A stretch of 64,000 nt of DNA from NCBI GenBank assembly GCA_016124975.1, contig WGMP01000013.1:44926-108925 (forward strand), read 5' to 3'. Positions 53,307 through 60,356 of the stretch are shown here, one piece after another (the stretch's first letter is position 1; every line of letters starts with the position of its first letter). A program made the position numbers and the translations under genes. Source of the stretch: Phycisphaera sp. (GTDB lineage: Bacteria > Planctomycetota > Phycisphaerae > Phycisphaerales > SM1A02). The notes below the pieces were generated by a model. It saw only the letters and a program-made list of their open reading frames with translations, made no database searches and had not been told where the DNA came from.

Positions 53307-56300
53307 TCACTTCTTCTGCGGGGCCTTCGCGGGCGCCTTCTCTGCAGACGAGCGGGTGACCGCCTCGAGGTGCGCGGCGCCTCGCTCGTCGAGGAAGCCG
53401 CCCTCGATCATCGACTCGACGGTCGACTGGTCGACACCGCCCGCCACCGAGCCGCAGCCGCAGAAGGTCTGCGCGAGGATCACGCAGGTGGTGTCCCACT
53501 CGCTGATGCAGCAGGTCTCGTCGAAGCTGCACACGAGCACGCAGCACTTGGCGTCGTTGCAGTAGGGCTCGTCGTGCTCGTTGCAGCAGCTGCCCGCCTC
53601 GGGATCGCCGCAGCTCAGGCCGCCCTCGCAGACATCGCACTCGCTGATGGCGATCGCGGCGCATGCGCCGTCCCATACCACGTCGCAGCAGAACGGGTCG
53701 ATGTCGCACACCGCCTCGCAGCAGGTCTCGTCATCGCAGTTCGCGTTGTCATGCGGGAAGCAGCAGCTGCCCGCCGCGGGGTCACCGCACGGCGGATCGG
53801 GGCACACGCGCGAGCAGGCGGGATTCGTGTTGGCCGTGGCGGCGCAGAACTCGTCCCAACGGACATCGCAGCAGAAGATGTCGATGTTGCAGATCGCGTC
53901 GCAGCACGCCTCGTCGTTGCACCACGGGGTGTCGTGGGCCTCGCAGCAGTTGCCCGCGCACGCGCTGCCGCAGCCGTACTGGTAGCGCTCGCAGCCGCGC
54001 GTCGAGTAGATCATCTCGACGCAGGTCTCGTCCCACTCGCTCTCGCAGCAGAAGCTGTCGATGGCGCAGACCGCCTCGCAGCAGTCCTCGTCGCTGCACG
54101 CGGGCCCGCGGCGCGCGATGTTGCAGCCAGGAAGCCCGATCTGTCCGCACTCGGGGCGGTTGTCCTCGCAGAGCGCTTCCGCGCGCTCGACGCAGTCGGC
54201 GTCCCAGCGGATCTCGCAGCAGTAGGAGAACTCCTCGGCGGCGCAGACCGCGAGGCAGCAGGAGGCGTCGGCGCAGCCAGGGGTCGGGCTCGTCGAGTAG
54301 CAGTTGCCCGAGGAGGGGAGGCCGCAGCCGCCCGCGCAGGTGATCTGCGCAGCGGCGACGCACGAGGAATCCCAGCGGACATCGCAGCAGTAGGGCTCGA
54401 AGCGGCACACGGCGAGGCAGCACGATGCGTCGCTGCAGAAGGGCGTCGCGTGCGGGGTGAAGCAGTCGCCCGCGCAGTTGTCGCCGCACTCGGGGAAGCC
54501 GCAGCAGACAGTGCGGGCGATGGTCACGCAGCCGCTGTCCCACGACTGGTCGCAGCATGTCGGGTCGATGGAGCAGACGCCCGTGCAGCAGACCTCGTCG
54601 TTGCAGCCGGCGGAATCCGAGCGCGCCTCGAAGCAGCTGCCGCCGCAGGGGCAGCGGGTCGTCGAGTCGGGCACGCACAGCGTGCGCGCGAGGCTGACGC
54701 AGGTCGAGCTCCACGCCTGTTCGCAGCAGAGCGGGTCGGCCGCGCAGACGATGTTGCAGCAGGTCGCGTCCTGGCAGCCCGGGGTCGAGCGGCTCTCGTC
54801 GCAGCGCCCCGTGCTCGGACAGGTCTCGAGCGTGATGCAGAGCGCCTTCGCGATGTCGACGCAGCGCTCGTTCCAGCCGAAGTTGCAGCACACGGGGTCG
54901 ACCGCGCACACGGTCTCGCAGCAGATCTCGTTGGCGCAGCCCGGATTCCCGTGCACGACGAGCGGCGACCCAGGCGCGGGGCACGCGGAGAAGTCGATGT
55001 CGCAGGAGATGCTCGCGGCGAGCGCGCAGGTCTCGTCCCATGCGCGCTGGCAGCAGGTCGGGTCGATCGCGCACTGCACTTCGCAGCACTCGCGATCCTC
55101 GCAGCCAGGCACGAAGCTGGCGACCGAGCACGGGCGACCGCGCGGAGTGCCGCAGCTCGAGGCGCTGTCGAGGCAGATCGTGCCCGCGTTCAGCACGCAG
55201 AAGAGGTCCCACTCGACCGTGCAGCAGAGCGGGTCGATGCTGCACACGCGGTCGCAGCAGTCGCCGTCGAAGCAGCCCGTGCCGCCGTGCGGCCAGAAGC
55301 AGCTGCCCGCCTCGATGTCGCCGCACCCGTTGCAGAGGAGTTCGGCCGTGTCGACGCAGTTGTTGTCCCAGCCGATGGTGCAGCAGAGCGGGTCGGCGGC
55401 GCAGACGCGCGCGCAGCAGGCGTCGTCGGAGCAGCCCGGGAGCTCATGCTTCACGAAGCAGCTGCCCGACGCCGACGAGCAGATCGCGTCGATCGCGGGG
55501 TCGCCCGAGAGCGCGCACTGCGAGCGGGCGAGCTGCGTGCAGGTGTTGTCCCAGCTGACGGTGCAGCAGAACGCGTCGAGGTAGCACACGCTGTCGCAGC
55601 ACCGCGCGTCGCTGCAGCCTGGAGCGTTGTGCTCAACGAGGCAGGAGAGGTTCTGGCCGGGGATCGGGGTGGTGACGCCGCAGCGGCACTTCGGCAGGTT
55701 GCAGACGCTGCCCGGCCCCGTCGCGAGGCCCGCGCACACGCTGTCCCAGCGGGTTTGGCAGCAGAAGGGGTCGACCTCGCACACGGCCTCGCAGCAGAGG
55801 CGATCGTCGCAGAAGGGCGTGTCGTTCTGGTAGCAGCAGCTTCCCGCGCGCGCGTTGCCGCAGGTGAAGCAGTACTGGCTCGCCCAGTCGACGCAGGTCT
55901 GGTCCCAGGTCGTCTCGCAGCAGCGCGGGTCGATGCCGCAGACCGTCTCGCAGCACGCGGGGTCGTTGCAGTTCGGGTTCTCGTGCGGAACGAGGCAGCT
56001 TCCCGTGGCGGGCTCGCCGCAGTCGTCGGTGAGCTCGATCGCGATCTTCACGCAGCCCTCGTCCCAGCCCGTCTCGCAGCAGGTGGGATCGACATTGCAG
56101 ACGGCCTCGCAGAGGACGCCGTTGTTGCAGTTCGCGCCTGCGTGCGGCTCGAAGCAGCTGTCCTTCGAGTTGCCGCAGTCCGAGCAGAACTTCACCGCGA
56201 GCGAGACGCAGAGGTCGTCCCACGCGATCTCGCAGCAGGCCGGCTCCACCGTGCACACGATCGAGCAGCAGGCGGCGTTGTTGCAGCCGCCTGCGCCGAG

Positions 56301-56435
56301 GTTGGTCGTGAAGCAGTCATTCGTCGCGTTGGCGCAGCCCTGCGCGTGCGCGGCCTGCGTGCCCGAGAGAAGCGCCGTGGCCGCTGCGAGGCCCGTGAGC
56401 GCGCTGCGGAGGATCGTGGTGAAGCGGTGAAGCAT
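53307..56435 (-). CDS. Secreted protein with 17 Cys-rich CC..VC..DP.CC...WD..C modules
   Basis: Signal peptide then 17 modules of about 45-70 aa counted by reading the translation. Confidence 0.88.
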   Translation of the reverse strand: MLHRFTTILRSALTGLAAATALLSGTQAAHAQGCANATNDCFTTNLGAGGCNNAACCSIVCTVEPACCEIAWDDLCVSLAVKFCSDCGNSKDSCFEPHAGANCNNGVLCEAVCNVDPTCCETGWDEGCVKIAIELTDDCGEPATGSCLVPHENPNCNDPACCETVCGIDPRCCETTWDQTCVDWASQYCFTCGNARAGSCCYQNDTPFCDDRLCCEAVCEVDPFCCQTRWDSVCAGLATGPGSVCNLPKCRCGVTTPIPGQNLSCLVEHNAPGCSDARCCDSVCYLDAFCCTVSWDNTCTQLARSQCALSGDPAIDAICSSASGSCFVKHELPGCSDDACCARVCAADPLCCTIGWDNNCVDTAELLCNGCGDIEAGSCFWPHGGTGCFDGDCCDRVCSIDPLCCTVEWDLFCVLNAGTICLDSASSCGTPRGRPCSVASFVPGCEDRECCEVQCAIDPTCCQRAWDETCALAASISCDIDFSACPAPGSPLVVHGNPGCANEICCETVCAVDPVCCNFGWNERCVDIAKALCITLETCPSTGRCDESRSTPGCQDATCCNIVCAADPLCCEQAWSSTCVSLARTLCVPDSTTRCPCGGSCFEARSDSAGCNDEVCCTGVCSIDPTCCDQSWDSGCVTIARTVCCGFPECGDNCAGDCFTPHATPFCSDASCCLAVCRFEPYCCDVRWDSSCVAAAQITCAGGCGLPSSGNCYSTSPTPGCADASCCLAVCAAEEFSYCCEIRWDADCVERAEALCEDNRPECGQIGLPGCNIARRGPACSDEDCCEAVCAIDSFCCESEWDETCVEMIYSTRGCERYQYGCGSACAGNCCEAHDTPWCNDEACCDAICNIDIFCCDVRWDEFCAATANTNPACSRVCPDPPCGDPAAGSCCFPHDNANCDDETCCEAVCDIDPFCCDVVWDGACAAIAISECDVCEGGLSCGDPEAGSCCNEHDEPYCNDAKCCVLVCSFDETCCISEWDTTCVILAQTFCGCGSVAGGVDQSTVESMIEGGFLDERGAAHLEAVTRSSAEKAPAKAPQKK

Positions 56436-56476
56436 GGAATCTGTTCTGGAGGGTCGGCCGGCTGCGGCGGTCGGAC

Positions 56477-56505
56477 GGCGATGGGTCGGCGATGGGTCGG
56501 CGGGT
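56477..56505. repeat. 11-bp tandem repeat (GATGGGTCGGC x2 plus flanks) in leader of the Cys-rich gene
   Basis: ...ACGGCGATGGGTCGGCGATGGGTCGGCGGGT... Confidence 0.85.
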
Positions 56506-56513
56506 TCGTGCAC

Positions 56514-59318
56514 TTACGGCGTGATGAGGATTCGCGACATGCCTGCGTTGAGGCCACCGTCGTCGTCGAACGGTGCGCCGAGGATCGAGAAGCCCTCGAC
56601 CCCAGAGACGGAGTAGCCGAACTCGTCACCCGCGGACGGAGAGAACGCCGTACGCGACTGGAGAAGGACCGCGCCTTGTGCGCCCGTCGTCTTGCGCAGG
56701 AAGTAGACGCGGCCTGCGTCGACGCGAGGCGTGGTCACGACCGTCACATCGCTTGCGGGCGCGCCGACGGTGATCGTGAACTGCGCAGGATCCGCGGTCG
56801 GGGCGATGGCGATCGAGGCGCCGAACGCGTCGCCTGGCTGCGCGTCGGGCGGCGTGAAGAAGCCACGGTAGCTCCAGGCGGTGGTGATGCCCGTGCCGTT
56901 GCCGCGCTCCCAGAAGTGAACGCGGCCGCGGCCGTCGCCGTAGCCGGGCGCGCCGACGGCGATGAGCTTCTTGTGGATCGCGACGGCCTCGCCGAAGCGG
57001 TCGCCCTCCGCGAGCGTCGCGCCCGCGCCCGAGGGGATCAGAAGCCGCGGCGAACTCCAGGTGCCAAAGCTCAGGCTCGAGACGGGTCGCTCGTAGACCG
57101 CCACGGCGCCTGTGTCGTCGTCGCGGCCAGGTGCGCCTGCCACGAACGCGACGCGCGAATTGCCCGTCGTCGTGATGAGCGTCTCCTGCGCCACGGCGTA
57201 GCCGAACTGGTCGCCTGGCTGGCCGTTCGCGAGCACGCGCACGGTGTGAACCTGCGGTTGGTTCGTCGCTGGGTTGCGGATGATGTAGACGCCGCCGCGC
57301 GAGTCGTTGCGGCCGGGCGCGCCGACGATGATCGATTCCGACGCCTCGCTCGGGCTGCGGCCGAGCGCAAGCGAGTAGCCGAAGAGCGAGTAGGCGCCCG
57401 CCGCAAGGCCGCCCGTCGCGGGCGGCGTGTAGCGCCACGGGGTGTTCGCGCCGCCATAGGTCACCTGCGACCAGACGCCGTCGTCGCCCTGCGCGAACAG
57501 GTAGATCGCGCCCTTCGAGAGGAAGGTCCCCTGCGACGGCGAGTGCGTGAAGCGGTGTGCGCCCACCGCGGCCATGTTGCGCGCGGGGTAGGCGGGCGAG
57601 CCGTTCGCGGGGCGCTTGAAGACAGAGAGGCCGCGGCCGAAGAAGGCGTTCGCGAGCGGGTCCGATGGGCGCAGCGTCTGGACGAGCGACTGATCGACCG
57701 TGCCGCCGACGACGGGAAGCACATATGCGACGCCTGCGTTCGACGCGCCGATGTCGTTGCCGGGTGCGCCGATGCCGAAGAGGACCTCGGGGTCGCCCGT
57801 GCGCGACGACGCGCTGACGGCCGCGCCGAAGGTGTCGAGGAAGGTGATGCCTCCCGCGACGAGCTCCGTATCGGTGAGGGGGCACTCGTCGGGGATGCCG
57901 TCTGCGTTCAGGTCGACGCTGATCCCGAGCGCGATGTCGCAGCTGTCGGGGAATCCCGTGCGGTTGCAGTCAGGGACGAGGCCCGCTGCGATGGCGTCCG
58001 AGTCGTTGACGCCGTCGCCGTCGCAGTCGTCGTCGGCCGTCGTCGCGCAGCGATACCGCGCCACCGTCTGCGCGGTCATGCCGATGGTGCGCGCGTTGTT
58101 GGCGGTCGCTGTGCCCGTCGCCGCGCCGAGATAGCTGACGAGCGGGTTCGAGTATCGCGCGAGGCGCTCTCCGGGGCTGTAGGCCATGATCGTGCGGTAG
58201 AGCGTTCCTGCCGCGTTGAAGCGCCAGCCGTTCGAGAAGGAGTACAGCCCGCCGCTCTCGCAGCCACCGCCGTCGCCGACCGCGTGGCAGCAGCCGAGGT
58301 TGTGGCCGAGCTCATGCGCGAGGATCGAGTTGCCGTCGCCGCCGGCCGACCCGACCACGGAGAACCCGAGCGCGGGGTTGCCGACGCCGAGATAGGCGAT
58401 GCCGCCTGCATCGACATCGGAGTAGAGCGCGACGAGGTCCGCCTGCAGCGCGTCGCGCACAGCGTGCACATTGTCCCAGATGCCGTCGTTCGTCGTGGCG
58501 AGCGCGTCGAGGTCGGTCGAGATCGAGCCCGAGGAGTTGGCGTCGAGGACGATGATGCCCGCGTTCGCGTCGTCTGGGTCGCTCACGATGCGGAAGCGCG
58601 TGAAGCAGAACGAGGCCGAGAGCGCGGAGTTGCCAAAGGCGATGTCCTGGAGGAGCGACGCCCGCATGTCGGCCTCGCTCGGGAACTGCGCCGCGAACGC
58701 GGGCGTCACGCAGAGAAGGAGGTCGATCGTCTCGCCCGTGTCGGGGCACTCTGAGGCAATGCCGCCTTCACCCTCACCGCCCGCGCCGAAGAGGCCCTTC
58801 GGAGGCGTGGCGACGCCCTCGCACTCGCTGCCCTCGCGCGGCTCTGACAGCCACTGCGCGCCGTCGCGCGTCTCGAGGTTCCATGACTGCGGCTTGCCGT
58901 CGACGACCGCCTCGATCCGACCGAGCACGATCCCGTCGTGCAGCGTGATGACGGCGTGCGCGCCGCTGTCGCCGTCTGAAAAGATGAAGGTGACCGCCGA
59001 CGGGCTCAGGAGCTGCCGCTCGAGGAGCGGGATCTCGACCGTGCGTCCACCTGTGAGGGGAAAGGCGAGCCGTTCGCCCACCTCAAGCTGCGCCGCGCGC
59101 AGCGCGGGAAAGGTCCAGCGGCGGTCCCAGTCCTGCACGAAGTCGGTGTCGGAGTGGAGGCGCGAGTCGATGCCCATGCGGGCGACGCGCGCCGAGTCCT
59201 CGTCGATCAAAGGCGGCGCCGCGAGCGCGCCTGCCGCGTGCGCGAGGACTGCCACGGTGGAGACGGCCGCCGCGAACGCAAGCGGGGTGGAACGGGCGGA
59301 GCTCTTGATGAAGATCAT
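56514..59318 (-). CDS. Secreted metzincin-type zinc metalloprotease with FG-GAP/integrin-like repeats
   Basis: HELGHNLGCCH (HExxHxxGxxH); six GAPxxD-type repeats; DLNADGIPDECP motif; signal peptide. Confidence 0.85.
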   Translation of the reverse strand: MIFIKSSARSTPLAFAAAVSTVAVLAHAAGALAAPPLIDEDSARVARMGIDSRLHSDTDFVQDWDRRWTFPALRAAQLEVGERLAFPLTGGRTVEIPLLERQLLSPSAVTFIFSDGDSGAHAVITLHDGIVLGRIEAVVDGKPQSWNLETRDGAQWLSEPREGSECEGVATPPKGLFGAGGEGEGGIASECPDTGETIDLLLCVTPAFAAQFPSEADMRASLLQDIAFGNSALSASFCFTRFRIVSDPDDANAGIIVLDANSSGSISTDLDALATTNDGIWDNVHAVRDALQADLVALYSDVDAGGIAYLGVGNPALGFSVVGSAGGDGNSILAHELGHNLGCCHAVGDGGGCESGGLYSFSNGWRFNAAGTLYRTIMAYSPGERLARYSNPLVSYLGAATGTATANNARTIGMTAQTVARYRCATTADDDCDGDGVNDSDAIAAGLVPDCNRTGFPDSCDIALGISVDLNADGIPDECPLTDTELVAGGITFLDTFGAAVSASSRTGDPEVLFGIGAPGNDIGASNAGVAYVLPVVGGTVDQSLVQTLRPSDPLANAFFGRGLSVFKRPANGSPAYPARNMAAVGAHRFTHSPSQGTFLSKGAIYLFAQGDDGVWSQVTYGGANTPWRYTPPATGGLAAGAYSLFGYSLALGRSPSEASESIIVGAPGRNDSRGGVYIIRNPATNQPQVHTVRVLANGQPGDQFGYAVAQETLITTTGNSRVAFVAGAPGRDDDTGAVAVYERPVSSLSFGTWSSPRLLIPSGAGATLAEGDRFGEAVAIHKKLIAVGAPGYGDGRGRVHFWERGNGTGITTAWSYRGFFTPPDAQPGDAFGASIAIAPTADPAQFTITVGAPASDVTVVTTPRVDAGRVYFLRKTTGAQGAVLLQSRTAFSPSAGDEFGYSVSGVEGFSILGAPFDDDGGLNAGMSRILITP

Positions 59319-59522
59319 CGTCGCGGGTCTATCGGAGTTCGGCGCGCCGTCGGCGGGTCGGTCGCACGAGGCGAACGAACCACCCGCCGAAACCGCGCGG
59401 CACCGCATCATCCCCTCTTCGCGGCACATTGCAAGCCAACCGCAGCGTGGGGCGGGATTTCCGCAACATTCCCGCGTTTGGACTCGTTGCGCGCGCGGCG
59501 CGGGACGGGGCGGTCGCGGCGC

Positions 59523-60305
59523 TCAGCGCAGCCCGCCGAAGCGCCTGTCGCGGCCCGCGTAGGCGAGGATCGCCGCCGCAAGGTCGTCGGTGCCGAAGTC
59601 TGGCCAGAGGACCTCGGTCACATGGATCTCGGCATAGGAGATCTGCCAGAGCAGGTAGTTCGACACGCGGAGCTCTCCCGCGGTCCGCACGAGGAGATCT
59701 GGGTCGGGAATCCCTGCCGTGTAGAGACGCGAGGCGACCGCGCCCTCGTCGATCGACTCAGGGTCGAGCCGCCCCGCGGCGACTTCTCGGGCGAGGGCCC
59801 GTGCTGCGTCCGCGATCTCAGTCCGAGAGCCGTAGTTGAGCGCGAGGCAGAGCGTGAGGCCGCTGCAGTGGGCGGTGGCGCGCTCTGTCTCGTCGAGTTC
59901 CGCGAGGACCTCCGCCGGCAGCCCGTCGCGGCGGCCGATCCTGACGAAACGGATCGACTCGCGAAGGAGCCGCGGCCGCTCGCAGCGGAGGAACTCCGCG
60001 CAGAGCGCCATCAACGCCTCGACCTCCTCGGCGGGGCGCTTCCAGTTCTCGCTCGAGAAGGAGTAGAGCGTGATCGCGCCGAGCCTGAGCCGCGCGGCTT
60101 CCGTGACGATGGCGCGGACCGTCTCGACTCCCTGTCGGTGCCCCGCCGCGCGCGGAAGCCCGCGCGCCTGCGCCCAGCGGCCGTTGCCGTCCATGATGAA
60201 GGCGATGTGCGCGGGCCAACGCTCGCGCGGCAGCGCCGCCAGCGCGTCCGCGACGGCCGTGGCTTCTGTCGCGCTTCCATCCTGCGGAGTTGTGAACTCT
60301 GCCAT
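59523..60305 (-). CDS. uppS: Isoprenyl transferase (undecaprenyl diphosphate synthase family)
   Basis: HIAFIMDGNGRWAQARGLPRAAGHRQGVETV, SFSSENWKRP, LALNYGSRTEI, PDPDLLVRTAGELRVSNYLLWQISYAE. Confidence 0.95.
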   Translation of the reverse strand: MAEFTTPQDGSATEATAVADALAALPRERWPAHIAFIMDGNGRWAQARGLPRAAGHRQGVETVRAIVTEAARLRLGAITLYSFSSENWKRPAEEVEALMALCAEFLRCERPRLLRESIRFVRIGRRDGLPAEVLAELDETERATAHCSGLTLCLALNYGSRTEIADAARALAREVAAGRLDPESIDEGAVASRLYTAGIPDPDLLVRTAGELRVSNYLLWQISYAEIHVTEVLWPDFGTDDLAAAILAYAGRDRRFGGLR

Positions 60306-60356
60306 GGGCACTCCGTCGCCGATCGCCTTCGACAACTCCCCACGCACGCCGCGCGG

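Follow-up and report, generated by a model that had tools for sequence, protein, structure and literature searches.

CYS17, an exported protein of 17 cysteine-rich modules encoded in the window (the whole 64,000-nucleotide stretch analysed here), carries an array that, judged by sequence, has been retained as one and the same orthologue through much of the bacterial family, a result that is new here. It is an unusual long repeat protein in that its copy number hardly drifts, and this near-constancy suggests selection on length or module identity. Our leading, if tentative, reading is that this modular protein, exported, strongly acidic and locked by disulfides, could act as a long envelope scaffold or spacer. 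We infer both location and function, and this reading fits somewhat better than the alternatives because the protein is acidic, disulfide-locked and exported, has a near-fixed number and order of modules, and is encoded beside uppS.

The CYS17 gene and protein

The gene starts with an ATG at 56435 on the reverse strand and stops at 53307. Its features are:

53307..56435, reverse strand: CYS17, 17-module Cys-rich secreted protein, 1042 aa (ORF and translation, congener orthologues)
56340..56435, reverse strand: putative signal peptide, residues 1-32 (MLHRFTTILRSALTGLAAATALLSGTQAAHAQ; sequence by eye)
53460..56336, reverse strand: 17-module array, residues 34-992 (alignment and profile; colinear with arrays of other genera)
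Residues 72, 124, 177, 230, 295, 356, 409, 466, 521, 575, 632, 688, 744, 801, 860, 921 and 980: module Trp anchors
53310..53450, reverse strand: Lys/Ala/Pro-rich C-terminal tail, residues 996-1042 (absent from most congeners)

By eye, the N-terminus is of the export type, with a basic n-region, a hydrophobic core and an AxA-like site, in agreement with the signal peptide proposed in the earlier note. The Lys-rich tail described there is real in the window protein but is not a conserved feature, as most congeners stop 1-3 residues past module 17. No anchor motif was seen in CYS17. Cysteine makes up 17.2% of the protein, and the modules are acidic (131 D+E versus 31 K+R). TRF detected no DNA tandem repeat within the gene and the non-Cys identity between modules averages 31%, so the array is taken to be ancient, with no recent expansion. 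Between the CYS17 gene and the metallopeptidase gene upstream of it, an 11-bp unit is repeated 3.5 times at 56465-56502.

Module sequence and predicted disulfides and fold

Seventeen W[DNS]xxC anchors recur at a spacing of ~53 aa, and the module alignment spans 54 consensus positions, with seven columns invariant in all 17. A profile built from them recovers each copy with E values of 3e-21 to 3e-15, which bears out the 17 copies counted from the sequence originally. Two elements of the original consensus, the "D" after the second Cys and the "DP", are prevalent (~75% and 67-74%, respectively) but not invariant. The conserved non-Cys positions are D20, D31, D40 and H13.

Each module has ten cysteine positions. 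Correlated Cys loss was computed over 492 non-redundant modules and is strongest for 28/35 (phi 0.84; seen six times, each in another protein or position), followed by 9/18 (phi 0.64), 23/51 (phi 0.33) and 1/24 (phi 0.25, a call weakened by N-terminal alignment gaps), with the counts for all pairs inflated by losses shared through descent. These losses support four putative disulfides per module, 1-24, 9-18, 23-51 and 28-35. Cys 34 and Cys 43 are lost in none of the modules and, paired by elimination, imply a probable fifth disulfide, 34-43.

The cysteines bear on the reading that CYS17 binds or stores metal (Ca2+) through acidic residues or thiols. The modules hold about four acidic residues for each basic one, and the conserved D20, D31, D40 and H13 would suit such a role; the pairwise-correlated losses of exported cysteines, on the other hand, point to disulfides rather than thiolate metal sites, and the array contains no EF-hand detectable with Pfam. 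We regard metal binding as improbable.

A two-module AlphaFold model built with 112 related sequences is confident (mean pLDDT 92) and predicts three helices per module. The full-length model reached pLDDT 72 and pTM 0.40; at that pTM, the "rod" originally proposed for CYS17 is a conjectural shape.

The original note could name no characterised function for the module, and searches of Pfam, NCBIfam and the PDB, the last by sequence and by fold, gave it no characterised family. Pfam hmmscan of CYS17 returned no family up to E=1, a search in which HMMER filters may hide weak matches to Cys-rich proteins, and Pfam/NCBIfam searches with the whole protein, the modules and the profile gave no match under composition filters that penalise Cys-rich profiles. 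A PDB sequence search gave no relative of the module, its E~1 matches being due to chance. Foldseek with the two-module model found zero PDB matches at E<=10, small disulfide-rich folds being hard for this method, and gave only E>1 against a viral library. Plasmids and viral contigs searched for the module yielded none. A similar module, CCxxxWDxxCV, may occur in myxobacteria; this consensus had no match among plasmids. A literature search on the module found nothing reported.

The array as one conserved orthologue

Each of the ten congeners tested carries exactly 17 modules, and every window module (17/17) finds its best match in the module of the same number in each of them. The 18 arrays from other genera or records hold 16-19 modules, apart from G334, which a contig end truncates at 15. 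Register was tested on 28 arrays by removing general similarity and comparing the best diagonal against the window with 1000 shuffles. The observed value was reached by none of the 1000 shuffles for 27 arrays and by 21 for the exception, G026; among arrays from outside the congeners, 17 of 18 are significantly in register. Offsets in other genera fit extra or missing N-terminal modules. Non-Cys positions vary among modules and are kept within one module index.

Spacing is kept as well. Linker lengths correlate with those of the window (Spearman 0.59-0.84), and the linker from module 7 to 8 has five residues in nearly all 17-module arrays. For close pairs dN/dS is 0.04-0.30, most of them having a dS close to saturation, and the CYS17 array is under purifying selection. 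Other genera add N-terminal dockerin-/LTD-like or C-terminal domains; in the window genus the array stands without these accessory domains.

Cleavage of CYS17 as a polyprotein, releasing small disulfide-rich peptides from between its modules, is suggested by module size, which is that of secreted disulfide-rich peptides. It is highly improbable, given that many neighbouring modules have no linker between them (range -1 to 5 residues), that the linkers contain cysteines, and that a conserved register and length would be needless for such a precursor.

Gene neighbourhood

The window gene order is hemW-like (forward), then purA, uppS, metallopeptidase and CYS17 (reverse), then methyltransferase and arginine decarboxylase (forward); purA, hemW and arginine decarboxylase were identified by eye from sequence. 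The two nearest upstream genes are:

59523..60347, reverse strand: uppS, undecaprenyl diphosphate synthase (Pfam PF01255, E 9e-77)
56514..59429, reverse strand: reprolysin-like M12 metallopeptidase with FG-GAP repeats (Pfam, synteny), 78 bp upstream of CYS17

CYS17 falls within a family-wide 17-module orthologue group in register and with uppS upstream on the same strand, in this case with the peptidase gene between. Arrays were considered assessable where at least ~2 kb of sequence lay upstream, and 26 of 28 (the window and G031 included) have uppS in this arrangement; it is not seen in G030 or in G026, where the array is close to the end of a contig. In seven of the 26, purA and hemW lie on the opposite side of the array, so the pairing of uppS and array has outlasted rearrangement. 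The linkage is nonetheless suggestive rather than proof, since purA-uppS also occurs outside the family, in G037, and purA-uppS-hemW, found in f2 too, is itself an old linkage, so that the array may sit beside uppS through inherited synteny and not for a functional reason. In seven assessable members of the family, purA and uppS are present with no array beside uppS, one of them a single-contig genome with zero module matches, which shows the array to be dispensable to the family. Four members of the family that have no array (L140, L142, L147 and L148) carry a long opposite-strand ORF after uppS; in L140 and L142 it has a prepilin-like N-terminus and is GspK-like by eye, and in L142 more prepilin-like ORFs follow.

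CYS17 as a multi-headed inhibitor, its disulfide-rich modules serving as the heads, or as a partner or substrate of the adjacent metallopeptidase would be in line with a peptidase gene lying so close on the same strand, with a homologue at the same place in 10/10 congeners tested and in G031, G547 and G669. It is found there in these only, and twelve arrays of other genera adjoin uppS directly with no peptidase between, so that the array is kept without it; we give this reading an outside chance. Both the dockerin and the metallopeptidase links are dispensable to the array. An apparent metallopeptidase-array fusion in G547 was rejected as an out-of-frame ORF extension, the two genes being neighbours. 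The G547 homologue ORF itself holds one module (L096, 9204-11231).

Proposed role and comparison with known envelope proteins

As a scaffold or spacer, CYS17 would consist of 53-residue modules, each a set of small helices held together by as many as five disulfides (1-24, 9-18, 23-51, 28-35 and 34-43). Seventeen of these with linkers of set length would give a body that is elongated, resistant to proteases and fixed in size, located in the periplasm or at the surface. Fixed length or module identity may matter mechanically or for ordered binding, the targets of which could be polymers of the wall or surface whose synthesis uses the undecaprenyl carrier. The envelope role suggested in the earlier note gains circumstantial support from the uppS linkage and strict array conservation. 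A more far-reaching version is doubtful: that the module defines a disulfide-locked domain family not described before, with the 17-fold array serving as an envelope spacer of defined length in a planctomycete family, independent of YTV proteins and tied genetically to the undecaprenyl-carrier pathway.

Cys-rich proteins have long been proposed as planctomycete wall material. CYS17 adds a concrete, testable wall candidate, a different Cys-rich array that is uppS-linked and comes from a planctomycete lineage outside the Planctomycetales. YTV-domain proteins (PF07639) have been recovered from preparations of cell walls (PMC8567305, PMC10632474) and are reported only from Planctomycetales (PMC8567305). 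They resemble CYS17 in being exported, Cys-rich and planctomycete. CYS17 was rejected as a YTV protein, as Pfam hmmscan gave no match, and the PF07639 model, searched without a positive control, had no match in its own genome. Peptidoglycan genes are missing from most Planctomycetales (PMC8567305), whereas the CYS17 genome encodes two transpeptidase-domain proteins. As these transpeptidases are present, CYS17 is probably no replacement for peptidoglycan.

In chlamydiae, a related phylum, OmcB and other Cys-rich proteins of the outer-membrane complex stiffen the envelope in a disulfide-dependent manner. The analogy to CYS17 is one of working principle, a disulfide-reinforced envelope; OmcB is not known to be built as a 17-fold array of the CYS17 module, and OmcB-type families gave no Pfam match to CYS17 up to E=1. 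Disulfide dependence of the chlamydial envelope is documented (PMC6752827).

The module in other proteins and taxa

The genome encodes 42 module matches in 11 ORFs, CYS17 included. The ten others look exported and carry 1-9 modules, most with terminal DLNGDG repeats that resemble dockerin; Pfam identifies one as a subtilase, and weak Dockerin_1 matches occur among the paralogues. CYS17, in which Pfam finds no Dockerin_1 repeat pair, differs from these dockerin-tailed secreted paralogues in lacking a dockerin. The module is thus also a mobile domain of other secreted proteins.

This mobility is relevant to a rather unlikely alternative, in which CYS17 is an extracellular multivalent binder (an adhesin or polysaccharide binder) whose 17 differing modules offer many distinct sites, each module being a binding domain, as may also be the case in the dockerin-tailed paralogues. 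Single modules occur in secreted proteins of the subtilase, PPC-like, LTD-like and dockerin-tailed kinds (PPC and LTD assigned by eye), the accessory LTD/dockerin-like and C-terminal domains on arrays of other genera would suit binding, and so would non-Cys positions that differ between modules yet hold within an index. Binding arrays, however, often gain and lose copies, whereas CYS17 keeps number and order, and the window genus keeps its array free of any accessory domain.

The constancy that favours a scaffold or spacer is not general to the module. For a homogeneous 9-module dockerin paralogue on contig 19, 15 congeners yielded no recognisable orthologue, and the best matches in them were mostly to the 17-module protein itself; CYS17, in contrast to this one traced paralogue, is kept across the genus.

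Most of the window's family carries the module, as do several further families of the class; the other families sampled from the order (f2-f6) lack it. A restriction to one family, as seen in a phylum sample, was overturned by a class sample that shows the module in f105, f96 and f107; ORFs fetched from these hold 1-5 modules in unrelated architectures and are not the 17-module array. Overall, this secreted domain belongs to one bacterial class. Of the matching named records, 2/3 are titled Planctomycetia and Phycisphaerae MAGs, in keeping with the planctomycete occurrence given in the earlier note. Two architectures deserve mention: a 1889-aa ORF in family f105 (L088, 5427-11093) has five modules ~243-283 residues apart in a long-period repeat, and the ORF at L058, 5775-7652, has nine modules with constant 3-residue linkers and a dockerin-like tail and, unlike CYS17, is apparently homogenised.
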